Made by a program: the position numbers and the translations under genes. 64,000 bases of DNA from Sphingobacteriales bacterium JAD_PAG50586_3 (GTDB lineage: Bacteria; Bacteroidota; Bacteroidia; CAMBQF01), in assembly GCA_023213195.1 (NCBI GenBank), contig CP096135.1, positions 2,538,842 through 2,602,841 of the forward strand, in the 5' to 3' direction. Numbering within the stretch: position 1 is the first letter of the stretch; every line of letters starts with the position of its first letter. The notes beneath the pieces are model-generated. The model saw only the letters and a program-made list of their open reading frames with translations, searched no databases and had not been told where the DNA came from. Shown here one piece after another: positions 869 to 24,156 of this stretch.

Positions 869-1258
869 ATGGAGGAGAGTAAATACGATGCCGAGGGAAA
901 TTTGAAAAACGGCATAATAAAGGAGTACTTTAAAAATGGGGCGGTATCATCAGAGGGTGAATATATAGATGGAGAAAAGACCGGGCTATGGAAGTACTAC
1001 CTGCTAAACGGACTAATTAAAGCCATTGGCCACTTTGAAAACGGCAAAATGATAGGCCCGTGGAAGTGGTACCGCGATAACGGTAAGCTTATGCAGGAAG
1101 GCACCTTTGAAAGCGGCGAAAAGAAAACCGGTGTTTGGAAACGCTTTCACCCCAACGGTAATTTGTACGATGAAGGCTTGTATAAAAACGATGCTAAGAA
1201 AGACGAGTGGAAAACCTATAATGCCGATGGTATATTAACAAAAAAGAAAAGGTATTAA
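869..1258 (+). CDS. YwqK/MORN-type repeat protein
   Basis: 129 residues made of about five tandem repeats of the MORN_2 type (patterns such as NGxxxxEGxYxxGxKxGxWKxYxxNG), for example DGEKTGLWKYYLLNG and NGKMIGPWKWYRDNG. Such repeats form beta-hairpin stacks. In databases these proteins are labelled 'toxin-antitoxin system YwqK family antitoxin', but no toxin gene is next to it, so I would not assume that role. There is no signal peptide, so it is probably cytoplasmic. The ATG directly follows GACTTTGT, a weak match to the Bacteroidota -7 element. Confidence 0.75.
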   Translation: MEESKYDAEGNLKNGIIKEYFKNGAVSSEGEYIDGEKTGLWKYYLLNGLIKAIGHFENGKMIGPWKWYRDNGKLMQEGTFESGEKKTGVWKRFHPNGNLYDEGLYKNDAKKDEWKTYNADGILTKKKRY

Positions 1259-1342
1259 TAGCCTTTCCCTTAATGTAAGAGTAAAGCAATCAGCTAAAGG
1301 GCCATAACTTTCAATACCTTGGCGCGGGCAATTTTTTTTGGC

Positions 1343-1350
1343 TACTTTTG
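1343..1350 (+). promoter_or_regulatory. Promoter -7 element of the GT2 gene
   Basis: TACTTTTG fits TAnnTTTG, the -7 consensus of the Bacteroidota housekeeping sigma factor. It lies 22 bases before the ATG at 1373. A TTG that could be the -33 element is at 1318-1320. Confidence 0.6.
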
Positions 1351-1372
1351 CAGTATATTATTAAATAGTAAG

Positions 1373-2441
1373 ATGGTTGATGTGCCTTTGGTCTCAGTAT
1401 TAATGCCTGTTTACAACACTGCCCCGTTTTTGGCAGAGGCTATCCAAAGCATCTTAAATCAAACTTACCAGAATTTAGAGCTTATTATTGTTAATGATGG
1501 CTCTACCGATAATTCAGAAGAGGTAATCCTTTCTTTTAACGATAAAAGAATTAGGTATTACCCCAATGCCGAAAACAAAAAAATAGTTTACAGCCGCAAT
1601 AAAGCGCTGGAACTGGCTAACGGAAAGTATATCGCTTTTTTAGATAGCGATGACTATTCTGTACCCAACAGGCTAGAAATACAGGTTGATTTTCTAGAGA
1701 AAAATATGCTTTTTGGTTTCATAGGGTCTAATGCGCGGTTTGTAAACACACGTAATGAATATTCTGATAATATTATTAGCTACCAGATTGGTGATGATGA
1801 TATAGAGATTATACTATTGTTTAAAAATTTCTTTTGCGCTTCTACTATTACATTTAGGCGAGATGCTATTGGCAATTTGCGTTTTAATCCTGATTTTCCC
1901 GTTGCCGAAGATTATGATTTTTATTTACGAATACTTGAAAAAGGTTGGAAAGCAACAAACTTAAACCAAGGTACTTACCTACTACCGGGTTCATAATTTT
2001 AATATTACCCATACAGAAAATAATTTGTTGATAGCAAAGGATATAGAAATTTTAAAGAGGCAAATAGAAGCCCTTAAATTTAACTATACTGATGAAGCTT
2101 TGCGGTTTTATTTTTTACTTGGAAAGTTGGATAATGAAGAGTATTATAATGAATATTCTATTGTTGACTTTGTTAAGGCTAATAAGTTTTTTGTAGACCT
2201 TGTGAAAGCTAATGCTAAAGTTAATAAGTATAATCAACAAGCTTTGATAAATTATTTATATGTAAAATGGTGGTTATTTTTTATTACTATTAAAAAGTAT
2301 GATTTTAAAATATACAAGCATGTTTTATATTCTCCATTTTACAATAAATTAAATTTGGTTACAAAGGTTAAGTTTTTTTTAAATGTTTTATTAATAGAAA
2401 AGCATTGTAATGAGACTTGCATATATTATAACATGCCATAA
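1373..2441 (+). CDS. Glycosyltransferase family 2 (reading frame broken near 1980)
   Basis: The N-terminal GT-A domain is clear: VSVLMPVYNT, then LIIVNDGSTDNS and the metal-binding DSDD of FLDSDDYSVPNR. Such enzymes transfer a sugar from a nucleotide donor, here probably to a surface polysaccharide or protein. I use the ATG at 1373, after a good promoter, rather than the longer frame from 1319. The frame stops at 1996, but shifting by one base near 1980 (TACCTACTACC) continues it as YRVHNFNITHTENN and on to 2441, giving about 355 residues, normal for the family. The C-terminal part is AT-rich and lysine/asparagine-rich compared with most of the window, which together with the next gene suggests a transferred glycan cassette. 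Its 3' end overlaps the next gene by 32 bases. Confidence 0.82.
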
Positions 2442-3425
2442 GAATATTGAGCAGGTTTGCAGGTTAATAGACCGCTTAAATAATAATGATAGCACTATTG
2501 TTATACATGCTAGTAAAACTAGTGAACCCGGCTTTTTTGAAGGCCTAAAGCAAATAATAGCTGGCAATGCAAAATATGCAAATGTGTTTTTTTGCAAGCG
2601 CGAAGATGGCACACATAATAGTTTTGGTATTGTAAAAGGGGTAATAAACGGACTTACTTTTTTATTTAAAAATAATATTCAGTTTGATTATGTAAGTCTA
2701 ATTAGCGGACAAGATTATCCAATAAAATCTAATACTGAAATTACTGAATTTTTTATTAAAAATAATGGTAAACAGTTTTTAGATTTTTTTCCATTATCGC
2801 CAAGGCTTTATAATGATTATGATTATGATAATTCTTGGGGCCTTAATAGGCAACATTATAGAATAGACAGGTACCATTTTGTTATTGATGGTGAAGTATT
2901 ATCTATACCTGAATTACTATCATCTAGGTTAATACAATATCCACTATTCAACACCGTTAAAATTTTTTTATACGAAAGTAAAAAGTACATTAAGCAAAAA
3001 CGCTTTAAGAAAGAATTAGGGTTGTTGTTTTGGAGTAGGGTGCTGCCCCGTAAGCGCAAAATACCAACCGATTTTGATGTTTTTGGGGAAAAACATGGTG
3101 GTCAATATCGCGCCAGGTAGCAGAATACTGTGTAAACCAACATTTTAATAATAAGCGTTACCGTAAGTTTTTCAGGTATACCTTAATACCTGACGAAATG
3201 TATATACACACCATTTTGCTTAATTCACAGTTTGCAAATAGTTGCATAAATAACGATTTGCGTGATATTGAGTGGGATGGTGGCGATGGTACGCACCCTA
3301 TTATATTTAAGGCCGAGGATATTGATAGATTTAAAGCATCGCCCGATTTGTTTGCCCGTAAATTCGATACGACCGTAGATAGTAAAATCCTGGATTTAAT
3401 TGACAAAGAGATACTTAATAAGTAA
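2410..3425 (+). CDS. Beta-1,6-N-acetylglucosaminyltransferase-like, GT14 (frame broken near 3093)
   Basis: Begins MRLAYIITCHKN and contains VSLISGQDYPIKS, the hallmark of the core-2/I-branching (GT14) family, which adds GlcNAc or xylose branches. The open frame ends at 3120. The neighbouring frame continues as WWSISRQVAEYC, the conserved W-W-S-x-S-R stretch of GT14 enzymes, and then to a stop at 3423-3425. Restoring one base in the ACATGG at 3092-3098 joins them into about 338 residues. It overlaps the preceding GT2 gene by 32 bases, so both probably act on the same glycan. AT content is high, as in the GT2 C-terminus. No membrane segment is evident. Confidence 0.82.
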
Positions 3426-4438: not shown

Positions 4439-5338
4439 ATGAAAAGCCATTTTAAAAGCCTTGTGTTTTCTATAATAACACTGTTGGGTATAGCAGCCCC
4501 ACAGTTGCAGGCGCAAGAACCCACTAAAGGGTTGCTATACAAAATATCGGGCAACGGGCTTAAAAAGCCTAGTTACTTGTTCGGCACGTTCCATGTTTTG
4601 CGCAGCGGGTACTTTGATGATAGGCCCCTAATAGGCAATTGTTTTGAAAAGGCAGATAAACTGGTGGTAGAGGTAGAACTATTACCAGGTTCTATGTTTG
4701 CCCTGCAAGATGCTATGTCTATGCCCGATGTATCCGTATCTGACTTTTTAAGCACCGAAGAAATTGATAAGCTAGACCGTAAATTAATACGCAGCACCGG
4801 CAGTGGTATAGACTCTTACAACCATACTAAACCGGCAGCTATTATGCTATCACTAACATCGGCAATGCCAGTACAGTCTAAAGAAAAGTTTAGCATGTAT
4901 ACCGGCGAGGTTATGGATACCCACCTGATGGAAAAGGCGCACGATAATGATAAGCCCGTAATATCGTTAGAAACGGTAGATGAGCAGGTTGATGTTTTGT
5001 TAGGCGAACCTATTGAACTGCAACTATCACAGCTAAAAGATTACCTAAACCTGGAGAATAAAGACGACACCAGTAGCGGCAAGGTGGTAGACTTATATTT
5101 TGCCGAAGACCTTGCAGGCCTATACCAAATGGCCCTTGATAACCCCGACCAAATTGGCAGCATGGACCGCATGCTTACCAACCGTAATAATAAATGGATG
5201 CAAAAGCTGCCCGATATTATGAGTGATGCATCGTGCTTTATTGCCGTAGGCGCTTTGCACCTTGCAGGGCCCGATGGGTTGGTTTACCAGTTGCGCAAAG
5301 CAGGCTATACGGTAACAGCCCTTCCCGTAGCTAAATAA
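4439..5338 (+). CDS. TraB/GumN family secreted protein, copy 1
   Basis: 299 residues with a Sec signal peptide (hydrophobic stretch about 9-20, likely cut after QLQA). The family signature is present at both ends: GTFH at residues 49-52 and GALHLAG at 271-277, the paired G-x-x-H motifs that in the related TIKI proteins form a metal-dependent protease site. The bacterial members are mostly uncharacterised, so proteolysis is inference. It would act in the periplasm or outside. A paralog follows 64 bases downstream in the same orientation, and an ECF sigma factor after that. The upstream 100 bases are AT-rich; I see no clear TAnnTTTG. Confidence 0.85.
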   Translation: MKSHFKSLVFSIITLLGIAAPQLQAQEPTKGLLYKISGNGLKKPSYLFGTFHVLRSGYFDDRPLIGNCFEKADKLVVEVELLPGSMFALQDAMSMPDVSVSDFLSTEEIDKLDRKLIRSTGSGIDSYNHTKPAAIMLSLTSAMPVQSKEKFSMYTGEVMDTHLMEKAHDNDKPVISLETVDEQVDVLLGEPIELQLSQLKDYLNLENKDDTSSGKVVDLYFAEDLAGLYQMALDNPDQIGSMDRMLTNRNNKWMQKLPDIMSDASCFIAVGALHLAGPDGLVYQLRKAGYTVTALPVAK

Positions 5339-5402
5339 AATATTTTTAAGCGCGCGTAATTTTATAGCTTAGTGCAGCACTAATGGTGTTGTAACATTCG
5401 CT

Positions 5403-6296
5403 ATGAATAACTTTATCAAATCCATATCTTTGTTTATAGCCCTGCTTATTGGCGGGCTTTGTTCTCAAACCTTTGCTCAGGAAGAACCTACAAATGGCTT
5501 ACTGTACCAGGTATCGGGCAACGGGCTTAAAAAGCCCAGCTACCTGTTTGGCACCTTCCATTTGCTTAATAGCGATTATTTAAAAGAGACTCCAAAAGTA
5601 GCTGAGTGCTTTGATAAAGCCAAGGGCGTGGTGGTAGAGTTAGAGTTAACCCCCAACGATTTGATGGTTATGCAAACGTCTATGTTGATGCCGGATAAAA
5701 AACTATCAGACCTATTAACAAAAGAAGAGTTGGATAAGCTAGACTCTAAACTTACCGATGCTATGGGCTTTGGTATATCCTTATTCAATAACCTAAAGCC
5801 TGCTGCTGTGGCTACATTGTTGGCTGCTGCTATGCCGCCCGATGTTAAAGCCCGTATAGAAAAATACCGCGGCAGCCCTATGGATATGTATTTTATTGAA
5901 GAAGGGCGCAACAAAAAGAAAACCATTACAGGCCTTGAAACTGTGCAGGAGCAGATAGATATTTTAATGGGCAAACCTATTGATGAGCAGGTGGTAGACC
6001 TTAAAAAATACATTACCAAAATTGATGAGGCTGATACCATTACCGCCAAAATTGTAGACCTGTATTTTGCTCAGGATTTGGCCGGGCTATGGGCTATATC
6101 TACTGATAATAAAGAGTTTGTAGGTGATATGAAACGCCTGTTAGACGACCGTAATAACAACTGGATGAAAAAGCTACCCGGGTTAATGAAAAAACAGCCA
6201 CAATTTATTGCTGTTGGCGCTTTACACCTGGCAGGGCCTGTGGGGCTTGTTTACCAGTTGCGCAAAGCAGGCTATACCGTAACACCAATAAAGTAA
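5403..6296 (+). CDS. TraB/GumN family secreted protein, copy 2
   Basis: 297 residues, tandem paralog of the preceding gene. The signal peptide covers about residues 1-25 (cut near TFAQ). The two family motifs are GTFH (50-53) and GALHLAG near the C-terminus, and the segments SGNGLKKPSYLFG and VYQLRKAGYTVT are almost identical in both copies, while the middle has diverged. This points to an old duplication under constraint at the putative active site. It is followed after 19 bases by the sigma factor gene, so all four genes 4439-7404 may form one operon. Substrate unknown. Confidence 0.85.
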   Translation: MNNFIKSISLFIALLIGGLCSQTFAQEEPTNGLLYQVSGNGLKKPSYLFGTFHLLNSDYLKETPKVAECFDKAKGVVVELELTPNDLMVMQTSMLMPDKKLSDLLTKEELDKLDSKLTDAMGFGISLFNNLKPAAVATLLAAAMPPDVKARIEKYRGSPMDMYFIEEGRNKKKTITGLETVQEQIDILMGKPIDEQVVDLKKYITKIDEADTITAKIVDLYFAQDLAGLWAISTDNKEFVGDMKRLLDDRNNNWMKKLPGLMKKQPQFIAVGALHLAGPVGLVYQLRKAGYTVTPIK

Positions 6297-7689: not shown

Positions 7690-10600
7690 ATGAAATTTAA
7701 GCTTCTCCAACGTCAGAAGGTAAAGCAACAAATGAAGATGAAAGCCAGGCTGGTAATTGCCGCCTCGGTGTTTGCTTTCTTCACTGTTGTAGTGTCGCTC
7801 ACATTTATATTTAATATAGGCGATGTTAGGAGTATGTTTGCCCAAACAGATAGCGTAGACCGCTACTGGGTTGGCAACTCTGTTTATACCAGCAGCTTTG
7901 ACAACCAATGGGAAACCGATGCTTGGCAACTTGTTAACGATAATGGTACAGGTAGCTGGGCGCTTGGTGGCGATGGTACGGCAACTATTACTGTAGATAA
8001 CTCGGCGGGTGGTTACGCAAGCTCACTTAAACACTCTTACGATGGTGCCCCACTATTATTAACACTTGATAAAATTAACGGACGTTTAGATTTAAACGTA
8101 ACAGGTATTACAGGAGGCCGCACAACGTTTTCTGTAGATGCCGAACAATACGATGCTAACAACAACTACCTTTCTACCATTACGGTTATGCACCCTGCAG
8201 CTTACTGCGGGTATTTTGTTATGTTATTTGGCGATGTTTCTAATTGGCACGCCAATGCAACTAAAGTACGCTTTGTTGTTAACGTGGCTAACACATCTAG
8301 CACGCAGGGGTCGGTAAGTTTTAATTATTTCTCTTATTCTAACGGTAGCCTAGATTGGAAAAACCCTGCTAACTGGGCAGCTTCTGCCGGTGGTGCAGGC
8401 GGGCAAAGCGTACCTACTGGGTCTGATGTTGCTGTTTTTAACGGTAACAACACAGGTACCTGCAACCTAAATGGCCCGCTAAATGTGGGTGGTATAGTTA
8501 TGGAGTCGGGCTATAATGGCATGATTCTTCAAAACGCTAACGAAGTTACTATAGGTGCTAATGGTTTAACAATAAACAACGGCACATTCCAGAGCGGTTC
8601 TGCTAATATTACAATTAATGGTCCGCTAAACATTACCAGTGCAACATCTACCTTTAGAAGCAGCACATTATTGCTAAATCTAAACGGCGATTTTAATATG
8701 ACTGCCGGTACGTTTACACATAACAATGGCCGTGTGGTTTTAGGCAACAACTTAACATGGACAGGCTCTGCAACATTAAACGAGTTATACATTAGCGCAA
8801 CAGGTACTAAAACATTCAACTTTGCTACAGGCTCTACGGTTACTGTAAACGGCACATTTGCAATGGAAGGCGCTGGCAGCATTATAGCCAATGGCGATGG
8901 TGTTATTGCCGTAAAAGCAGGCCTTATAAATACCAATACAGGTTTAAACGGTGGCGGTACTGCTACCATACTGGTAAACGGTACAGGTGCACAGGCACTA
9001 ACCGGTAACTCTACCATTGGTCAAGGCCGTTACCCTAAACTAACGTTTGATAAAGCATCGGGTACGCTTACAGTAACCAATACCGTTTCGGTAGGCAATA
9101 ACTTTACCTATGTAAAAGGTGCTACCGTAACTACAGGCTCAACATTTGCCTTTGGCGGAAGCAACCTTACTATAGATGCGCAAGGCACTACCGCTAATAT
9201 GAACTTTAACAATGTGCAGGTTGGCAGCAACACTGCTACTACAGCAGGCATATTTACTGTTGGTGGTACGTTAGATATTGCCAGCGGTGCAACACTAGAG
9301 CTTTCAGGTTTTGATGCAACTGTAACAGGCAACACCACATCGGCAGGTATACTTAAAACTATCAGTGCTACAGGCAACAAAACCTTTGGCAACCTTACCA
9401 TCTCTGCCGGTGGCTCTTGGGATGCATCAGCAGTTGACGAAGAATTTAATATCAACGGTAACCTGGAGAGCTACGGAACATTCTCTGCCAGCGCTACAAC
9501 AGGCACCAGCAGCATGTACTACCTAAAAGGCAATGCAAAAGCTATTCGCGGTACATTAAGCATACCCCGCATAGAGATTGATAATGGTTCAAACAACGCA
9601 TCGTACACAAATTATGGCAGCCTAACGGTATCTACATCGCTACGCGGTGTGGGGGCACACTTGCCCAGGGCGACAGTGCCATGCTACGTTTGGGTATTTT
9701 ACCTAACGTTAATGATATGAGCTTAACTACGCTTAACGCTTCGGCTACAGGCAATACGGTTGAGTATAACTTAAATACAAACCAAGGGCAGGAAGTATAT
9801 GGTACTACGTATTTCCATACTATTTTCTCAGGCTCAGGCGCTAAAACATTACGCGCTGCAACTACTGTAAATGGCAACTTAGCTATAAGCGGTGCTGCTA
9901 TACTAGACGTATCAGCATCTAACTACCTGTTAAACATTAAAGGCAACTGGACAAACAGCAGCTTACCGGGCAGCAGCCTTGCGCCGTTTAACGCACGCAC
10001 AGGTACGGTAACCTTTACTGGTAATGCCCCGCAAACTATTACATCGTCGGCCTACGCAGGTGGAAACAGTTTCTACAACCTCACTTTTAACAATACAGCT
10101 ACCAGCATACCGCAAATACTTATTGCTAATGATGATAATGCTACCGGCACACTTACTTTAACTGCCGGTAATATAGACTTAGGCTCTACTACATTTACCC
10201 TTGGCTTTTCAAGCACTGTAAAAGGTACATTAGTACACACCGCGGGCTATTTCTTAAATGGTACGTTTAAACGTTGGTTTAACACCACAGCGGTTACTTT
10301 GGGTAACGTAGCAGGGCGTTTCCCAATAGGACATAAAGAAAATGCTACCACCGTTCGCGACCGTAGCGTTTACCTTGGCGGTACTGCTATTATTGGCGGT
10401 ACTATGCAGGCGCGCCACGCCAATGCAACAGGTAATTTCGATTTTGTAGCTCCTTTCCAAGATAATGGTACCATTGTAGATGTGCGCCACAACATGAGCT
10501 GGATTACTGCCGTTGGCGATGGTTTAGATGGTAGCGCGTTTCAACTGCGTATTTCTGCCGAAGGTATGCCGGGTGTAAACAACGCCGCCATGTTGCGCAT

Positions 10601-11318
10601 TGTTAAACAGAATGGTGCAGCGCCGGGTACTTCTATATCGGGTGGTGGCACAACATCAAATCCTTATGCTAACAAGCAAGGCATGGGCCCATCGGGTATG
10701 AATAATACCTTCTACATGGGTAGCTCGTGGAATACAAACCCACTGCCTATTACCTTACTATCGTTTACCGCCGTGCCGGATGGCAACCGCGTTAAGTTAG
10801 ACTGGGTAACAGCATCAGAAGAAAATAACGATTTCTTTACTATTGAGAAAAGTAAAAATGGTGTTGATTTTGTTGAGGTGCTACAAAAAGCAGGCGCGGG
10901 CAACAGCAATACAAATATTGCTTACAACGATTTTGATAACGACCCATACGCTGGAACATCATACTACCGCTTAAAACAAACCGACTATAACGGTCAGTTT
11001 AAATACTCTAACATGGTGGCGGTAGAGTTTGCTACCGTAGATCAGGATATTGAGTTTAACATATTCCCTAACCCGGCCAGCTCTTCCTTTGGCGATGTGG
11101 TACAGTTTACCATGAACACCGAAGATATGGATGAGCAACCGGTAGTTATTAATGTACTGGATATGTCTGGCCGCATAGTGGCTACGGTAAACCAGCGCAC
11201 CAACCGTTCTATACTACAGGCAGAGGTTGTACAATCGTCAAACCTTAAACCGGGTATGTATACTGTTGTTGCCGTAATAGGTAAAAAACAAATTACCAAA
11301 AAGCTAATTATTAACTAA
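7690..11318 (+). CDS. Giant secreted beta-repeat protein with T9SS type A sorting domain (frame broken at 9651-9655)
   Basis: About 1,210 residues when the frame is restored. A long N-terminal signal/anchor (hydrophobic about 25-45) precedes DRYWVGN. The body is rich in Gly, Asn, Thr and Ser with many short beta-strand repeats (TITVDN, NLTINN, GNFTY types), as in parallel beta-helix adhesins. The last ~85 residues are a T9SS type A tail (IFPNPASS ... GRIVATVN ... LKPGMYTV ... KKLIIN), which sends proteins across the outer membrane and is then cleaved. The frame from 7690 ends at 9720; adding one G to the G5 run at 9651-9655 gives GTLAQGDSAMLRLG and joins the second frame. A cysteine-poor extracellular protein, function unknown; it heads the surface-protein region. 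TACTTTTA at 7640-7647 is the likely -7 element. Confidence 0.88.
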
Positions 11319-11793: not shown

Positions 11794-13923
11794 GTGAAAG
11801 TAGCAACCACCACATCAGTAAAAGCCATAATTATATCTGGCTTAATGTTCTTTTTGCTAATACGGCAAACGCCCAGTTGGTAAGTTTAAACTTAGATGGT
11901 TCGGCCCCCAACACCAATGCCCAGCTCGATATTAAATCGACAGGCTTGCAAGGTAAGGGCCTCTTAATTCCGCGTATGACAGAGGCACAACGTACCTCTA
12001 ACTTATCAGTTATAGGCGGTTTGGTAAACCTATTAGGCCAGCTACATGGCGGCCCTGCTCAAGGTTTACTTGTTTATCAAACAGATGGGGCACAAGGCTT
12101 CTATTACAACACCAGTACAACATCAACCCCCAGTTGGCAATATTTAGCGCCAAACGGTTCAGGTTCTGCCGGTCCAACAGGACCAACAGGAGCTGCCGGT
12201 GCTACAGGAGCTGCCGGTGTTGCTGAGGCTTGGCTAACAGGCTCGGGCGCACCTACAGGTGGTCAGGGCATTGTTGGCGATTGGTACTTCCGTACATCAA
12301 ACAGCCAGATACTTGAAAAAACAGGTAGCACTACCTGGACCAGCCGTGCTACCATTACAGGTGCAACTGGCGCAACAGGTCCAACTGGTGCAGCCGGTGC
12401 CGCAGGAGCAGCGGGTTCTGCCGGGGCTACAGGCCCTACAGGTGCTGCGGGTGCTTCTTCTGCCTGGTATAGTGGCAATGGCAACGTTGGTAATGGACAA
12501 TATAATGTTGGCGATTGGTACCTACGCACAAACACTGGCGATGTGTTTGAAAAAACAGGCAGCTTGCAGTGGACCTTGCGCATGAATATTATGGGACCAA
12601 CCGGACCTACAGGTTCTGGTGGCTCTGGCAGCGGTTGGGCTTTAACAGGCAACGCAGCGTCTAGCGGTAACTTTTTAGGCACTACAAATTCACAACCCCT
12701 ATTGTTTAAAGTAAACAATACTACTGCGGGCTATCTTGGCTCGTCAGACTATAACGCATTTTTTGGCCCTGCTGTAGAATATAGCGGTGGCGGCACCTAC
12801 AATACAGGTATTGGTTACGATGCTACTATATATGGTTCTATAACACACTCTATTGCTATTGGTAGCGGTGCGCAGGTACAACCAGGCAGCGGCAGTACAG
12901 AAGATATTGCCATTGGCAAAGGCGCAAATGTAACCGGTGGTAGCGCGTTCTCATATTCATTAGCCATTGGTTCTGCTGCACAAGTGCAGGCAAGCAATGG
13001 TATTGCTATAGGAAAAAGTGCCAACGTAAACACCCAATACGGTATGGCTATTGGCGATGGTGCCACAGGCACAAAGCAACAACGCTGGCATGGCTATTGG
13101 TCGTAGCAGTTATGTAAACGTTGCCGATGGTATTGCCATTGGAACATCAGCACAATCGCAGGGTACCGGTGCTATTGTAATTGGTAAAAGTGCATATTCT
13201 AATAGTGTTGATGCAATTAGTATAGGTGTGTCGGCACAGGCACAGGGTACCAACTCTATTGCACTTGGCGAAGGGGCCAGTGTAAACCAAACCAGTGCAA
13301 TTGCTATTGGTAGTGGCACAGGTAGTAACACAACACAGGCACAAGGGCAATATTCTATTGCTTTAGGTTACAGAGCTTATACCAGCGCAACAGATGCTAT
13401 TGCCATAGGCGACTATGCCCGTGCACAAGGGGCCAATGCCTTAGCTATTGGTGCTAATACATACAATGGCAACGCAAATACCATATTAATTGGTAACTCT
13501 ACCCATACTACTGTAAACTTAAACGGTTCAACATCTACCAGCTATGCTTTGCAGGTAGGTACAAGCAGCAGCAATGGTAATGGCGCATACCTTACCAAAG
13601 GTGGTGTGTGGACCAACGCATCAGATATTAACTTAAAAGAAGATTTTGTTTCTCTTGATGGTAATGAGATATTAAATAAAGTAGCCGACCTTGATATTAC
13701 AAAATGGAGGTATAAAGGAACGGACGAATACCACATTGGCCCAATGGCACAAGATTTTTACTCTGCATTTAATGTAGGTAACGATGATAAGCGTATAAGC
13801 AGCATAGACCCTAGCGGCGTAGCATTGGTAGCTATACAAGCGCTTAATGATAAAGTTGAACAACAACAAAAAACTATTGATGTACTGCTTAAGCAATTAA
13901 CAGATTTACAACAAAAACAATAG
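11794..13923 (+). CDS. Collagen-like fibre protein with YadA-head-like repeats and S74 chaperone tail (frames broken near 11865 and 13073)
   Basis: Start is taken as GTG at 11794, giving a signal peptide (SVKAIIISGLMFFLL) that, with one base added near CTAATACGG, runs into NTANAQLVSLNLDG. Domains in order: a conserved ~115-residue N-terminal module; G-x-y collagen repeats (GPTGPTGAAGATGAAG) interrupted by two ~45-residue W-L/Y-x-G...VGDWYxRT...W modules; a long run of ~14-residue YadA-head-type repeats (SIAIGSGAQV, IAIGKGANV, MAIGDGAT and others) forming a left-handed beta-roll in known trimeric adhesins; and at the C-terminus an S74 intramolecular chaperone domain (DINLKEDFVSL ... YHIGPMAQDF) with a terminal coiled coil. 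One extra G at ACAGGCAC near 13067-13069 causes the break at 13106. All pieces are trimer-forming, so a trimeric surface fibre that self-trims its chaperone is inferred. Confidence 0.82.
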
Positions 13924-14243
13924 TGTTCATGATTAATCTGCCGGATGGATTGTTAAGTTCAATCCGTCCGGTATTTTTAATGGCTTGTTTAAAAAACTAA
14001 TACTGTCTATATAAAGCCATTATCACAAATATTAATTAGCTGCTTACATTGCCCTTACATTATTCTAAAACAATATTTACTTTCTGAATGCCCTATTAAT
14101 AAAGGTTTTCTTCCTTTGCAGAGTTGTTTTTAATCAAGCAAACACCTACAATTCTTACCCGCGTAACGCACGCCCGTTTGTTGGCTATACAAGTTAATCA
14201 GCACAAATAATTTTACCCCTGATAAACAGCCAACCAACACAAA
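13924..14243. other. Intergenic region between first and second collagen-like genes
   Basis: 320 bases. It holds the terminator at 13940-13978, CCTTACA at 14053-14059 and TAATTTTA at 14208-14215, the same two elements in the same order and spacing as before the other collagen-like genes. No gene is supported. Confidence 0.55.
13940..13978 (+). terminator. Rho-independent terminator
   Basis: CCGGATGGATTG / CAATCCGTCCGG with one T-G wobble and loop TTAAGTT, then TATTTTT. It lies 19 bases after the stop of the YadA/S74 gene. Confidence 0.75.
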
Positions 14244-16652
14244 ATGAAAACCACATTAACTTTAAAACTTGTTTTTACAACAGCGTTGCTACTAACGCTT
14301 GTACAAACAAAGGCCCAATTGGTAAGTTTGAACCTGGATGGGTCGGCCCCTAACACCAATGCCCAGCTCGATATTAAATCAACTGGCTTACAAGGCAAGG
14401 GCCTTTTAATTCCGCGTATGACAGAGGCACAACGTACCTCTAACTTATCAGTTATAGGCGGTTTGGTAAATCTATTGGGCCAGCTACACGGTGGCCCTGC
14501 GCAAGGTTTACTTGTTTACCAGACAGATGGTGCCCAAGGCTTCTATTACAACACAAGCACTACATCAACCCCCAGTTGGCAATATTTAGCGCCAAACGGT
14601 TCAGGCTCAGCAGGCCCTACAGGTCCTACAGGTGCTGCAGGTATTGCCGAGGTTTGGTTAACAGGCTCGGGCGCGCCCACAGGCGGCCAGGGCAATGTTG
14701 GCGATTGGTACTTCCGCACATCAAACAGCCAGATACTTGAAAAAACAGCAGGTTCAACATGGACCAGCCGTGCTACTATAACAGGTGCAACGGGAGCTAC
14801 AGGTGCCGCTGGTTCAAATGGTTCAGCAGGAGCAACAGGTCCAACTGGCGCTGCTGGTTCAAATGGTTCAGCGGGAGCAACAGGTCCAACTGGCGCTGCC
14901 GGTGCAGTTGGTGCAACAGGTATTGCCGAAGTTTGGTTAACAGGTTCTACGGCACCTACAGGTGGCCAGGGTTCTGTTGGCGATTGGTACTTCCGCACAT
15001 CAAACAACGAGATTTTAGAAAAAACAGCAGGTTCTACATGGACTAGCCGTGCTACTATAACAGGTGCAACGGGAGCTACAGGTGCCGCTGGTTCAAATGG
15101 ATCAGCGGGAGCAACAGGCCCAACAGGCGCTGCAGGTGCAGTTGGTGCAACTGGTATTGCCGAGGTTTGGTTAACAGGCTCGGGCGCACCTACAGGTGGC
15201 CAGGGTAATGTTGGCGATTGGTACTTCCGCACATCAAACAACGAGATATTAGAAAAAACAGCAGGCACAACTTGGACCAGTCGTGCTACCCTTGCAGGTG
15301 CAACGGGTGCTACAGGCCCTGCCGGTGCTGCAGGTGCAGATGGGGCCACAGGAGCATCTTCGGCTTGGTATAGTGGTAATGGCAACGTAGGCAATGGGCA
15401 ATACAATGTTGGTGATTGGTATTTACGCACCAGTAATGGCGATGTGTTTGAAAAAACAGGCAACCTGCAATGGACATTGCGCATGAACATTATGGGCCCA
15501 ACAGGTCCAACAGGCCCGGGTGGCTCTGGCAGTGGCTGGGGCTTAACAGGTAATTCATCTACCAACCCCGGTACTAACTTTATTGGTACTACAGATAATA
15601 AAGATTTTGTAGTTAAAACAAACGGAACAGAACGGATGCGTATACTATCTGATGGTAAAATTGGTATAGGAACAACTTCGCCCACCAAGGCACTTGATGT
15701 TGTGTTAAACTCATCGGGTACCAATGTGGTAAATATTAGAAATACCAATGCAGCAGGGTATTCTTCTATTGATTATTTTGACCATACCGGTAACCAAATG
15801 TGTAATGTGGGTTATTCAAACTCATCGGCAGGTGCTTATGCAGGTACTATGTATTTTGCTACTAATGCTGATGTTGATATGACCTGGGCTCATAATAATA
15901 CAGAAGTAATGCGTTTGGCAACAGGTGGAATGCTGGGTATAGGTACATCTAGCCCAAGCGAGAAACTAGATGTTATAGGCCACATTAAAGCAGGTGCAAC
16001 TACTGACCAGGAAGGCGGCCAATTTATGTTGGCTGAACCAAGTTTAGCAGGCACAGGTAGCTGGGTTATGGATAATTTCTTTTCGTATGACGGTGGCAAC
16101 AAATTACGTTTTTGGAACGACAGAACAGGAGTTAACCCAATTACTATCCTTGATAATGGCCATGTGGGTATTGGTTCATTTGATTGGAATGAGCAACCAT
16201 CAACAGACTTACATGTACAAGGTAGTGTTCGTATAGAAGATGGAACACAAGGAGCAGGTAAAGTACTTACTTCTGATGCTAATGGTAATGCTACTTGGGC
16301 AACGCCAAGCTCAAATGCGCCCAATATTTACTCATCTACCTCGCAAACTTTATCAGGAACATCAAACAATAACATAAGCTTTAGCTCTGCTGGTTATATT
16401 AAATTTAACAGTGGTAGCTCTAGCAACTTCTCTATTACAGGTTTTTCAGCTGGGGTTGACGGACAAATTTTGATTCTGCAAAACGTTGGCACAGGTAACA
16501 TGACTGTAAGAAACCAAAATAACGGTTCTAGTGCGTCAAACCGTATTGTAACCAACACCGGCTCAGATGTTGCAACCACTGGCACAGGTACCATAACATT
16601 AATTTACGATGGTACACAAAGCCGTTGGGTTGTAATAAGCGTAGTTCAATAA
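14244..16652 (+). CDS. Collagen-like repeat surface protein, second paralog
   Basis: 802 residues in one uninterrupted frame. Signal peptide about 1-25 (LVFTTALLLTLVQTKAQ). The next ~115 residues are essentially identical to the preceding paralog. Then come three nearly identical modules (IAEVWLTGS ... GDWYFRTSN ... EKTAG ... TSRATITG) separated by G-x-y collagen stretches such as GATGATGAAGSNGSAG, and a fourth variant module (SSAWYSGNGNVGNG). The C-terminal third has phage-tail-like segments GIGTTSPTKALDV and GIGTSSPSEKLDV and a beta-rich end. No T9SS tail is present, so the export route past the outer membrane is unclear. The S74 and YadA parts of its neighbour are missing. Role as a trimeric surface fibre is inferred. 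Confidence 0.85.
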   Translation: MKTTLTLKLVFTTALLLTLVQTKAQLVSLNLDGSAPNTNAQLDIKSTGLQGKGLLIPRMTEAQRTSNLSVIGGLVNLLGQLHGGPAQGLLVYQTDGAQGFYYNTSTTSTPSWQYLAPNGSGSAGPTGPTGAAGIAEVWLTGSGAPTGGQGNVGDWYFRTSNSQILEKTAGSTWTSRATITGATGATGAAGSNGSAGATGPTGAAGSNGSAGATGPTGAAGAVGATGIAEVWLTGSTAPTGGQGSVGDWYFRTSNNEILEKTAGSTWTSRATITGATGATGAAGSNGSAGATGPTGAAGAVGATGIAEVWLTGSGAPTGGQGNVGDWYFRTSNNEILEKTAGTTWTSRATLAGATGATGPAGAAGADGATGASSAWYSGNGNVGNGQYNVGDWYLRTSNGDVFEKTGNLQWTLRMNIMGPTGPTGPGGSGSGWGLTGNSSTNPGTNFIGTTDNKDFVVKTNGTERMRILSDGKIGIGTTSPTKALDVVLNSSGTNVVNIRNTNAAGYSSIDYFDHTGNQMCNVGYSNSSAGAYAGTMYFATNADVDMTWAHNNTEVMRLATGGMLGIGTSSPSEKLDVIGHIKAGATTDQEGGQFMLAEPSLAGTGSWVMDNFFSYDGGNKLRFWNDRTGVNPITILDNGHVGIGSFDWNEQPSTDLHVQGSVRIEDGTQGAGKVLTSDANGNATWATPSSNAPNIYSSTSQTLSGTSNNNISFSSAGYIKFNSGSSSNFSITGFSAGVDGQILILQNVGTGNMTVRNQNNGSSASNRIVTNTGSDVATTGTGTITLIYDGTQSRWVVISVVQ

Positions 16653-17002
16653 TCACCATATCTCTCAATTGTTTTCAAGTCCCGCCACCGGCGGGACTTT
16701 TGTTTAATACAAATTGATGTTCACATTGATAATAACTAGAAGAATACCGCTGCCATGCATAAAAACAAAGGGTATAATCCTTTAAATAAATGGGTTGTAG
16801 AATAAAATAGCTACACTGCCTTACATGCAATAGCAGTTAACTGAAAATTAAATTGTTGCGGAAACAGTTGTAAATACTATAGGTTTGAAAAAAGTGGCTT
16901 TCAAAAAAACTAAATTTCTTACAAGCGTAAAGCATACCTTACTCTTGGTTATTAAAAGCATTTACTACGTATAATTTTACCACTGCATAGCTAAAATATG
17001 TT
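16653..17002. other. Intergenic region between second and third collagen-like genes
   Basis: 350 bases, AT-rich, with the terminator at 16677-16705, CCTTACA at 16819-16825 and TAATTTTA at 16972-16979. No gene is supported. Confidence 0.55.
16677..16705 (+). terminator. Rho-independent terminator
   Basis: AAGTCCCGCC / GGCGGGACTT with loop ACC, followed by TTGTTT, 24 bases after the stop of the second collagen-like gene. Confidence 0.8.
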
Positions 17003-18364
17003 ATGAAACCAATGCACAAAAATATTATCCGCGTAACACTAATAACAGCCATACTATATGTGCTGTTTACACAAAGGCTATCGGCCCAGGCCGTGGGTAT
17101 AAATAATGATGGTTCTGCGCCAAATGCAAATGCTATGCTCGATATTAAATCGCCTACTAAAAACGGTAAGGGTTTATTAATACCACGCATTACACAAAAG
17201 CAACGTTTAGAGCCTGCTGCCCTTGGTGGGCTGTTAGATGAGAACGGCGCTTTACGCGGAGGCCCGGCGCAAGGCCTTATAGTATATCAAACAGATGGCC
17301 GTGAAGGGTTTTATTATAATACAAGTACAGATGCAATGCCTAATTGGTTATTAGTAGCATCGGTAGGCAGCACAAATAATAACAATAACGGTACCAACGG
17401 CCCATCCGGTTCTCAGGGCCAACAAGGGGTAACAGGCACCACGGGAGTAGGCTCTGCTTGGATAACAGGCCCCGCTGCCCCAACAGGTTCTCAAGGCAAC
17501 CAGGGCGATTTTTATCTACAACAAAACAACGGCTTATATTACAAGAAAACCAGCGGAACAGCTTGGACACAGCAGGGTAGCCTTATGGGCCCCGCAGGTG
17601 CAACAGGTCCAACAGGTGCCATGGGCATTACAGGTGCTACAGGCCCGGTAGGTGGCATAGGCGCTACAGGAGCAACAGGCCCGGCCGGTACAATGGGCGT
17701 AGGTGCTGTAGCCGGTAACACTCCGTTTTGGAATGGTACAACGTGGGTGCTAAACAGCAGTAACCTATTTAATAATGGTGCTAACATAGGTATAGGCACC
17801 GCAACCCCTGCCGAAAAATTAGACGTAGCAGGTTCAATAAAATTTACAGGCCCATTAAAACCCGACGGCAACGCAGGCGCGGCAGGTCAGGTTTTAGCAT
17901 CAGCAGGCCCTTCGGCCCCTCCGGTTTGGGCATCGGCATTTACAAAAAACAACTTGTATATAGACTATAGTACAGGTGGCGCTATAACCAATACCACATT
18001 TGCCAATGTACCGGGCTTAACACGCTCGCTTACCTTAAAAGCAGGCGATAGGGTGTTGCTGTACGCAACGGGCGGCATGGCTGCCAATGGCACAGTATAC
18101 ACATCGGCCGATATTGGTTTTTGTGTAAACCAACAAGACCTTATGAATGGTGGCTACACCAAAGCATCGGTAGATTATGCTGGCTCGCGCTTTGTGCCTA
18201 ACGCAAACTGGACATTGATGGGTCATTACGATGTGCCTGCCGATGGTATGTATGTGTTTAGTGTTCGCACCAAGCAAAGCTCTCCATCTAACGGTACAGC
18301 TACTGTTGGCGGAGATAATACTACAGTGCTTCAGTCTACCATGATGATACAAGTATTGAAATAG
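17003..18364 (+). CDS. Collagen-like repeat surface protein, third paralog
   Basis: 453 residues; a second in-frame ATG at 17012 is equally good. Signal peptide to about residue 30 (LFTQRLSAQ). The N-terminal module is homologous to, but clearly diverged from, that of the two upstream genes (for example GKGLLIPRITQKQR versus GKGLLIPRMTEAQR). It has one inserted W-module (SAWITGPAAPTGSQGNQGDF), short collagen stretches (GPAGATGPTGAMGITG), a GIGTATPAEKLDVAG segment and a unique C-terminal ~150-residue beta-rich domain (LKAGDRVLLYATGG ... VPADGMYVFSV) that resembles C1q/TNF-type jelly rolls in layout; that match is by eye only. Probably the oldest paralog. Confidence 0.82.
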   Translation: MKPMHKNIIRVTLITAILYVLFTQRLSAQAVGINNDGSAPNANAMLDIKSPTKNGKGLLIPRITQKQRLEPAALGGLLDENGALRGGPAQGLIVYQTDGREGFYYNTSTDAMPNWLLVASVGSTNNNNNGTNGPSGSQGQQGVTGTTGVGSAWITGPAAPTGSQGNQGDFYLQQNNGLYYKKTSGTAWTQQGSLMGPAGATGPTGAMGITGATGPVGGIGATGATGPAGTMGVGAVAGNTPFWNGTTWVLNSSNLFNNGANIGIGTATPAEKLDVAGSIKFTGPLKPDGNAGAAGQVLASAGPSAPPVWASAFTKNNLYIDYSTGGAITNTTFANVPGLTRSLTLKAGDRVLLYATGGMAANGTVYTSADIGFCVNQQDLMNGGYTKASVDYAGSRFVPNANWTLMGHYDVPADGMYVFSVRTKQSSPSNGTATVGGDNTTVLQSTMMIQVLK

Positions 18365-22070: not shown

Positions 22071-23369
22071 GTGTATCCAAACTTCAGAGAATTATTTTAC
22101 TATACCCTAGGGGTAGATATTCCGGCACTGGCCGTGGTAAACACATTTGGCTTTTTTGTGGCTATGGCTTTTGTTGTGGCCGCATGGCTGCTTAGCAAAG
22201 AGCTTAAGCGCAAAGAGGCCGAAGGTCTTATATCATCAAGCAAACGCAAAGTAGTTGTTGGTCAACCCGCATCGGTAATAGATATGGGCACATCGGGCCT
22301 GTTGGGCTTTTTAATAGGCTTTAAAGTGTTGGGTATGATTTTTAATATGGATTGGGAACACCAAACACCACAACAATTCATCATATCAACCCAAGGCAAT
22401 ATTATTGGCGGCCTGCTGTTTGGCGGCTTGTTTGCCTACCTAACCTGGAAAGATAAAGAGAAAACCAAGCTTGCCCAGCCTAAAGAAGAAACCATTACCG
22501 TACACCCTTACCAACTTGTAGGCAACATTACGGTTATAGCCGCGGTATCAGGTATTTTAGGGGCTAAAATATTTCATCATCTGGAAAACTGGGACGATTT
22601 TATAAAAGACCCAGTAGGTCAGTTGTCTGACTTTTTTGGTGGCCTTACTTTTTACGGTGGCCTTATTTGTGCTACAATATGTGTGCTGTGGTATTTACGC
22701 CGCAATAACATTAAGGCTGTGCACATGTTTGATGCTGCCGCGCCGGTATTAATTGTGGCTTACGGTGTAGGCCGTATAGGCTGCATGGTGGCGGGCGATG
22801 GTGACTGGGGCGTAATAAACAGCGCATACAGGGTTGATGGTGACCGTAACTACACAACTGTATCGTTACCCGATACTACTATTAAAAAAGAACTAGCTAC
22901 TTACTATCCATACTTCGAGGCAAACAGCCCAGAAGAGGTGCCGCACATCCACTTTGAAAAACCGGGTGCTTTAGGCTTTTTGCCCGACCAGTTTTTTGCT
23001 TACGACTTTCCGCACAACGTATTAGAGCGTGGCGTGCCGTTAAACAATACTCCCCGCGAGCAATTTCGTAACCACCTGCCGCTGCCGGTTTTTCCTACCG
23101 CGTTTTACGAGGTGCTTATGGCCCTTGCCATTTTTGGCTTTTTATGGTCTATACGCAAGCGCATTAAAACACCGGGTATGCTTTTTGGCATATACCTTAT
23201 GTTTAATGGGCTAGAGCGTTTCTTAATAGAATCTATTAGGGTAAATACTAAAATGCACTTTTTAGGCATGGTTGTAACCCAGGCACAGCTTATATCAACC
23301 ATATTATTTTTAGTGGGTGTGGCGCTTACCGCATATACCTATAGTATTTATAAGAGGAAGAAAGCATAA
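22071..23369 (+). CDS. lgt: Prolipoprotein diacylglyceryl transferase family protein (Lgt-like)
   Basis: 432 residues from a GTG start. Seven or so membrane helices, an N-terminal NTFGFFVAMAFVVAAWLLS and the Lgt-type core AYGVGRIGCMVAGDGDWG are present. Lgt attaches diacylglycerol from phosphatidylglycerol to the lipobox cysteine of prolipoproteins. Compared with E. coli Lgt (291 residues, GRIGNFINGE) this protein is long, with a soluble stretch after the signature (about 255-320), and has Cys-Met-Val-Ala in place of the Asn-containing loop; such divergent forms occur in Bacteroidota. Enzymatic identity is therefore likely but not certain. Its stop overlaps the next start (TAATG), so the two are translationally coupled. 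Confidence 0.75.
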   Translation: MYPNFRELFYYTLGVDIPALAVVNTFGFFVAMAFVVAAWLLSKELKRKEAEGLISSSKRKVVVGQPASVIDMGTSGLLGFLIGFKVLGMIFNMDWEHQTPQQFIISTQGNIIGGLLFGGLFAYLTWKDKEKTKLAQPKEETITVHPYQLVGNITVIAAVSGILGAKIFHHLENWDDFIKDPVGQLSDFFGGLTFYGGLICATICVLWYLRRNNIKAVHMFDAAAPVLIVAYGVGRIGCMVAGDGDWGVINSAYRVDGDRNYTTVSLPDTTIKKELATYYPYFEANSPEEVPHIHFEKPGALGFLPDQFFAYDFPHNVLERGVPLNNTPREQFRNHLPLPVFPTAFYEVLMALAIFGFLWSIRKRIKTPGMLFGIYLMFNGLERFLIESIRVNTKMHFLGMVVTQAQLISTILFLVGVALTAYTYSIYKRKKA

Positions 23370-24156
23370 TGGAACTAATACGCATTTGCGAACAGGTAAT
23401 AGCAGCAGCTACAGAAACAGGTAGGTTTATTTTAGGTGAGCAGGCTAAGTTTAACGAGGGGTTTGTAGAATCTAAAGGTATACACAACCTTGTTAGCTAT
23501 GTAGATAAAACCGCCGAAGAAAAGCTGGTGGCGGCCCTTAGCAAAGTAATGCCCGAAGCGGGCTTTATTACCGAGGAAGAAACCGTTGCTCAAACCCGTG
23601 CAGAATATAACTGGATTATAGACCCGCTGGATGGTACAACCAACTTTATACATGGTTTGCCATGCTATGCGGTTAGCATTGCACTTGCCAAAGGCGATGT
23701 GCCTATTGTGGGTGTTATATACGAGATTAACAGGGCTGAATGCTTTTACGCATGGCAGGGTGGGGGAGCCTTTTAAACGGCAAACCCATTAAAGTTTCTG
23801 CCCGCGAAAAGCTTGATGATAGCCTGTTGGTAACGGGTTTTCCTTATTACGATTATGGTAAGCTAGACCAATACCTGGCCCTGTTTAAACACCTTATGCA
23901 ACACAGCCGTGGTATACGCCGTTTGGGCTCTGCGGCTACCGATATGGCCTACGTTGCCTGCGGACGTTTTGAAGCGTTTTATGAATATGGCTTAAGCCCC
24001 TGGGATGTTGCTGCGGGTATTATTATAGTGAACGAAGCAGGCGGGCAAGTGTCTGACTTTAGCGGAGGTAACGATTATCTTTTTGGTAAAGAACTAATAT
24101 GCTCTAATACCAAAACGCACGACCAATTATTAGAGGCCGTGCGCTTGTTTTTCTAA
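23369..24156 (+). CDS. suhB: Inositol monophosphatase family protein (frame broken at 23771-23774)
   Basis: Restored length about 262 residues. Metal-binding motifs of the family are all seen: EEETV (Glu), WIIDPLDGTTNFIHG and, in the second frame, GLSPWDVAAGIIIVNEAGG. The break is at GCCTTTTAAACGGC, where a fifth T gives GGGAFLNGKPIKVSA. Members dephosphorylate inositol-1-phosphate or act on NADP(H), PAP or fructose-1,6-bisphosphate; the sequence does not separate these. It is coupled by a one-base overlap to the lgt-like gene. Confidence 0.87.

Follow-up and report, generated by a model that had tools for sequence, protein, structure and literature searches.

A tandem locus of three probable MAT-like adhesin fibre genes in a Sphingobacteriales genome

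A locus of three mosaic fibre genes

Here, we have analysed a window of 64,000 nucleotides from Sphingobacteriales bacterium JAD_PAG50586_3 (the whole stretch of DNA under study, positions 2538842-2602841 of a single-contig genome of 4.16 Mb), in which three tandem genes on the + strand, named A (~11794-13923), B (14244-16652) and C (17003-18364), probably encode mosaic trimeric adhesin fibres similar to those of the mosaic adhesive trimer (MAT) superfamily of Bdellovibrio. All three start with a Sec-type signal peptide (ending AQ or similar), followed by a common N-terminal module, referred to as the N-module, and by collagen-like stretches, whereas their C-termini differ, comprising an S74 domain in A, a tip of its own type in B and a TNF-like tip in C (Table 1). 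An earlier sequence-only reading, which had placed three fibre genes here and had described them as paralogues sharing an N-terminal domain with different C-termini, was right on both counts. The reading frame is intact in B and C, while A was read in pieces.

In MAT fibres, a signal peptide precedes an invariant beta domain at the N-terminus and a trimeric beta-helix with the capping loop V-G-G/N-x-x-x-P-x-x-x-L; their tips include self-cleaving S74 domains with the motif SDxxxK as well as TNF-like or lectin folds, and tagged MATs were shown by antibody to be surface exposed (Caulton et al. 2024, PMC10769870). Gene B alone, compared with the Protein Data Bank (PDB), matched the Bdellovibrio MAT protein Bd2133 (8ond) with an E value of 0.0013. 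Combined in a profile with eight Bacteroidota relatives, B retrieved 8ond (3.7e-36), 8ojn (1.7e-14), 8ol4 (3.2e-12), 8oml (1.8e-11) and 8on4 (3.9e-7), all five of them MAT structures; up to E 0.1 there was no other match. The B-type shaft is homologous to the MAT shaft, and this closest known system, detectable by profile, had been missed by the earlier reading. The capping-loop motif is found once in C and is not obvious in A, of which the orthologue in a congener has one.

The S74 domain of A scores 43.4 bits against a Pfam cut-off of 22 (PF13884, E 4e-11). Its catalytic dyad, for which a check had been proposed, is intact, with S at 13621-13623 and K at 13636-13638 in the motif SDINLK; searched alone by sequence against the PDB, the domain had no match. 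For the tips of B and C no convincing sequence match was found; that of B shares 37% identity (E 8e-16) with a part of a viral fibre open reading frame (ORF) on contigs L161/L162, and for that of C a pattern search yielded no viral relative. Another viral fibre ORF (L142) carries the GDWYFRTS-type insert of A. A model of the C tip, built from two sequences and of low confidence (predicted local distance difference test, pLDDT, 61), found the TNF-like lectins BC2L-C and PLTL as its best Foldseek matches (E 2.6e-6 to 1e-4), in agreement with the jelly-roll-like end that had been noted for this paralogue. Since the MAT tip Bd2734 has also been reported as nearest to BC2L-C (PMC10769870), we counted this likeness for a MAT-like nature of the locus.

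Taken together, these parts suggest the following architecture. A, B and C would be exported by Sec, as indicated by their signal peptides, and the N-module, as first part of the mature chain, would form an invariant, cell-proximal base. The shaft, presumably a trimer like its homologues, would be built of collagen triple helices and inserts together with beta-helix segments that carry GIGT capping loops, and the C-terminus would serve as a swappable binding tip. In A, the YadA-type head would be folded by the S74 chaperone, which, having its dyad, may then cut itself off; B would carry a tip in common with a viral fibre, and C a TNF-like lectin fold. By analogy with Bdellovibrio MATs, the most likely place of the fibres is the outer surface, where they would bind glycans or other cells; they resemble the surface fibres used by this predator to recognise other cells. 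The N-module appears to be the likeliest determinant of outer-membrane crossing.

Some observations weigh against such an assignment. The Pfam Collagen scores of A (21.7 bits) and C (27.0 bits, just below) do not reach the cut-off of 27.2 bits, which only B exceeds (30.1 bits), although Gly-X-Y runs are plain by eye in all three; the model of the C tip has low confidence; two frameshifts interrupt gene A in the sequence as read; and the N-module, with 66-95 residues, is shorter than the MAT N-domain of ~130 residues, to which it is likened by position, not by homology. For this last reason, we file the locus as MAT-like rather than as a proven MAT.

The N-module and its distribution

The conserved core of the N-module comprises ~66-95 residues, not ~115 as estimated earlier, with the consensus VGINxxGxxPNxSAxLDxxSTxKGLLIPRMTxAQRxAIxxPAxGLLVYQTDxxxGFYYNxGT...W. 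The 93 residues of the modules in A and B are 100% identical in protein, and in 300 aligned bases there are 27 differences, none altering a module residue, and one identical stretch of 65 bases. Base differences beside an unchanged protein mean that the identity of the two modules is being kept; conversion or strong constraint is acting on them in this genome, gene conversion perhaps helping. The same pair is 84% identical in the congener.

No Pfam family matches the N-module, some PHROGs match it weakly, partly tail proteins, and its profile retrieved only noise among PDB sequences (best E 0.71). An AlphaFold2 model from 40 sequences (pLDDT 80, predicted template modelling score 0.67) is mainly beta with one short helix. 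With this model, the PDB fold search yielded no match under E 4, and the best viral matches were long phage proteins with E 0.02-0.05; a VIA-align comparison with a phage tailspike, with a best Z of 3.5 over 40 residues, was not counted. As to whether the module belongs to a characterised export system, none containing it was found with the tools used.

A search across Bacteroidota, as the sequence-only reading had proposed, located the N-module in 134 of 197 Bacteroidia genomes, with up to at least 29 copies per genome. The pattern scan of named genomes, for which a closer sequence set (A2) was used, the first profile (A1) being too diverse, revealed it at more than 555 places, mostly in Bacteroidota; a minority lies in metagenome-assembled genomes (MAGs) labelled Lentisphaerae, Verrucomicrobia, Neomarinimicrobiota and others, where mis-binning is possible. 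MAGs with the three named labels also hold long-form N-modules (L061, L062, L063, L065, L066), which match those of the window at 56-63%, closer than most Bacteroidota ones, and would reflect transfer or mis-binning. In cellular ORFs the module stands directly behind the signal peptide, a hydrophobic stretch preceding it in 146 of 148 by a permissive test, whereas in 16 viral loci it is internal to the fibre protein. This suggests one fibre element common to cells and phages, with a signal peptide in cells at the place of the virion-attachment part of phages.

The partners of the module were counted with local profiles, hence approximately, in 108 unique N-module ORFs with a complete C-terminus, a sample drawn by the module itself. 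Heads plus S74 occur in 21 of them, the GIGT shaft in 37 and collagen in 10, while collagen together with heads is confined to the genus of A, so among N-module proteins the full combination of A is a rarity. Such a joining of three modules, though unusual, does not have the singular status first given to it: N-module, heads and S74 occur together commonly in Bacteroidota, as in these 21 ORFs, and an unrelated protein (L167) joins an NYQGVARD-type N-terminal module to collagen, head-like repeats (recognised by local profile, not by Pfam) and S74. Elsewhere in the genome of the window, an N-module gene of a fifth type (L040:2050-4770; C1:2612049-2614769) has long collagen and a different C-terminus; it shares the strand of sprA and lies ~1.2 kb upstream of that gene. 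Our literature search on collagen or tail-fibre surface proteins of Bacteroidetes found nothing direct.

Export and the type IX secretion system

In A, B and C, no tail of the type IX secretion system (T9SS), no lipobox and no YadA anchor was found; the first and last had already been reported missing, and YadA_anchor was not found anywhere in the genome either. The genome has a T9SS. By local profile, a T9SS tail is present in none of 148 N-module ORFs, nor in any of the 108 complete ones. A second sample, selected for S74 score irrespective of the N-module, comprised 62 complete S74 ORFs from among the top matches when 119 Bacteroidia genomes were surveyed. The N-module is present in 21 of these and a T9SS tail in 19; 22 have neither and none has both, where about six with both would be expected (Fisher p 8e-5 for the whole sample, 0.0016 when each genome counts once per class, weakening to 0.06 when collapsed to sequence clusters). 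Five genomes hold S74 proteins of both kinds. This pattern fits, without proving it, a view of the N-module and the T9SS tail as alternative delivery cassettes. The idea that the module is the attachment or export unit thus gained ground, in that it always stands directly behind the signal peptide and never, in our sample, together with a T9SS tail; it is likely a base or delivery cassette. More tentatively, and with the odds still against it, it may be an unrecognised delivery and anchoring cassette, alternative to the T9SS tail; through it, mosaic trimeric fibres derived from phages would reach the cell surface by an undescribed route in about two thirds of Bacteroidia and in some other phyla.

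The T9SS itself might take up these proteins through a signal in the N-module other than the C-terminal domain (CTD). SprA is indeed present in the genome of the window and in 191 of 197 Bacteroidia genomes, which says little, as it is nearly universal, and mutual exclusion of module and CTD in S74 proteins would be expected of two signals doing the same job. On the other hand, nine assemblies with the module are unplaced or lie outside Bacteroidota, and in six of them SprA was not detected. These MAGs are incomplete or may be mis-binned, but the finding disfavours a strict need for the T9SS, and we know of no T9SS cargo lacking a CTD in such a manner. On balance, we consider this route unlikely. 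A second alternative, in which the fibres stay in the periplasm or are released free or in vesicles, agrees with the absence of lipobox, CTD and anchor from the three proteins; as long adhesive shafts with lectin-like tips make little sense inside, and as the MATs of Bdellovibrio are surface exposed (PMC10769870), it appears very improbable compared with display on the surface.

Two further observations concern S74 proteins. A second N-terminal module, of the type NYQ(A/G)VARD, starts nine of the 62 S74 proteins (L163-L222), all nine without T9SS tail and without N-module, and may be another delivery or base module. A secreted protein from the genome of the window (L009, C1 ~669.8-671.8 kb, ORF 1141-3051) contains GIGT motifs and two tandem S74 domains, the second of which is followed by a C-terminal tail of T9SS-like type; on self-cleavage, the fibre would thus be severed from this sorting tail.

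Integrity of gene A and its genomic context

Gene A changes frame twice, first from the signal-peptide frame (GTG at 11794) to that of the mature protein between ~11834 and 11876, and again in the heads between 13051 and 13106; signal peptide, remaining heads and S74 are in one frame, and N-module, collagen and first heads in another. A congener (G002) has the same locus with the same gene order and the same flanking genes. There, the orthologue of A (L045:1-1776) carries collagen, YadA_head and S74 in one open frame, all above the Pfam cut-offs; its N-terminal part is on a separate contig, the two contigs overlapping by 39 residues (NNRVGIGTTNPSDKL...LMLYEP). The fusion is therefore not an artefact of reading across frames, and an assembly chimera was rejected as well. 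Of the claim that one gene joins collagen, YadA heads and S74, the fusion is real, while A is not a single open frame in this assembly. The breaks are probably assembly or sequence errors, since other genes are also split here: sprA (C1:2603711-2610850) is in six pieces, being unbroken in nearly all of ~190 other genomes listed, and a T9SS-tailed gene upstream of the locus (window 7690-11318) is split in the window and intact in the congener. An inositol-monophosphatase-like gene (23369-24156) is split as well. The breaks of A were left as read.

Ratios of nonsynonymous to synonymous substitutions between the congeners (rough values based on pN/pS, with synonymous sites near saturation) range from 0.03 to 0.18, with ~0.05 for the S74 of A, 0.18 for its heads, 0.08-0.13 for the N-modules, 0.15 for B and 0.08 for C. 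Such low ratios argue for working genes under purifying selection.

These findings bear on whether the locus is a prophage remnant of leftover tail-fibre genes without cellular function. Every part of the proteins has a counterpart in phage fibres, and the N-module in viral contigs, PHROG tail-fibre matches and the B tip in a viral fibre would suit a remnant. Against it stand the signal peptides, the N-module being N-terminal in the mature protein and internal in 16 viral ORFs, its presence in two thirds of the sampled Bacteroidia, and the congener, which keeps locus and order under purifying selection. Moreover, the neighbours scanned (part of the window ORFs) are cellular, namely TraB-like, T9SS, Hpt, DUF4956, MtaB-like and LGT genes, with no phage structural genes among them. 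We rejected the remnant as highly unlikely; a cellular use of tail-fibre parts, as initially suggested, agrees with the signal peptides, the neighbours, the synteny and the selection. Type Vc trimeric autotransporters with a lost or separate anchor, to which the YadA_head match of A might point, were discarded as least plausible of all, for the defining YadA_anchor was found neither in the proteins nor in the genome, A ends in S74 and a coiled coil, and B and C have no heads.

At 4439-6296, the window also contains a pair of adjoining genes of the TraB/PrgY/GumN family.

Table 1. Parts of genes A, B and C with their positions in the window
Feature	Positions	Strand	Basis
Gene A, signal peptide, GTG start, frame change inside	11794..11876	+	two-frame translation; continuous comparable peptide in congener orthologue
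Gene A, N-module, 93 residues	11877..12155	+	profile and paralogue match
Gene A, collagen-like Gly-X-Y, GDWYFRTS-type insert between 12162-12224 and 12360-12458	12162..12458	+	Gly-X-Y runs; Pfam Collagen 21.7 bits, sub-threshold
Gene A, YadA-type head repeats	12850..13520	+	PF05658 E 5e-16; PDB YadA 1p9h E 2e-6
Gene A, S74 intramolecular chaperone and C-terminal coiled coil	13540..13923	+	PF13884 E 4e-11; SDxxxK
Gene B, signal peptide	14244..14318	+	sequence ends KAQ-LVSLN
Gene B, N-module	14319..14597	+	profile and paralogue match
Gene B, collagen-like stretches alternating with GDWYFRTS-type inserts	14604..15359	+	PF01391 30.1 bits vs 27.2 cut-off; repeats
Gene B, beta-helix type shaft, GIGT(T/S)SP capping-loop motifs	15564..16283	+	PDB Bdellovibrio Bd2133 8ond
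Gene B, C-terminal tip	16323..16652	+	also inside viral fibre ORF
Gene C, signal peptide	17003..17089	+	sequence ends SAQ-AVGIN
Gene C, N-module, 62% identical	17090..17359	+	paralogue match
Gene C, collagen-like stretches 17390-17452, 17588-17704	17390..17704	+	Gly-X-Y; PF01391 27.0 bits, just below cut-off
Gene C, tip, TNF-like jelly roll	17939..18364	+	low-confidence model

Significance and comparison with known systems

If the locus is MAT-like, fibres such as those by which a predator recognises its prey would belong generally to the surface of Bacteroidota. They would combine a common base with interchangeable tips and would have been recruited from phages or be shared with them. This would also explain many proteins named "tail fiber domain-containing" or "collagen-like". 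Discussion of export in this phylum mostly centres on the T9SS; the exclusion between N-module and T9SS tail points to a second way of delivering large surface proteins, and the N-module is a directly testable candidate signal.

Among known systems, the collagen-like adhesins Scl1/Scl2 and Legionella Lcl share a collagen stalk with a C-terminal binding domain and gave weak model matches, but these lie far below the model cut-offs, LPXTG is absent and the ends are different. YadA and other trimeric autotransporter adhesins have the head repeats of A, while the genome has no YadA_anchor and A ends in S74. Phage tail fibres and S74 tailspikes (endosialidase chaperone family, PF13884) have in common with the locus the S74 domain, collagen-like and GIGT segments, a stretch like the N-module and the B tip; the proteins of the locus differ in having signal peptides, no virion-attachment N-terminus and an N-terminal instead of internal N-module. 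The T9SS-tailed S74 proteins of Bacteroidia occur in the same genomes and often have the same shaft in addition to S74, but carry a C-terminal sorting domain and, in our sample, never the N-module. In comparison with MATs, the host is a member of the Bacteroidota and not a known predator, and the main text of the MAT paper (PMC10769870) names neither collagen nor YadA-type heads. Nevertheless, both have a signal peptide followed by a conserved N-terminal domain rich in beta structure (as predicted for the N-module), a beta-helix shaft homologous by profile, the capping-loop motif and tips of the S74 (SDxxxK) and TNF-like kinds, and both MATs and N-module genes form many paralogues per genome.

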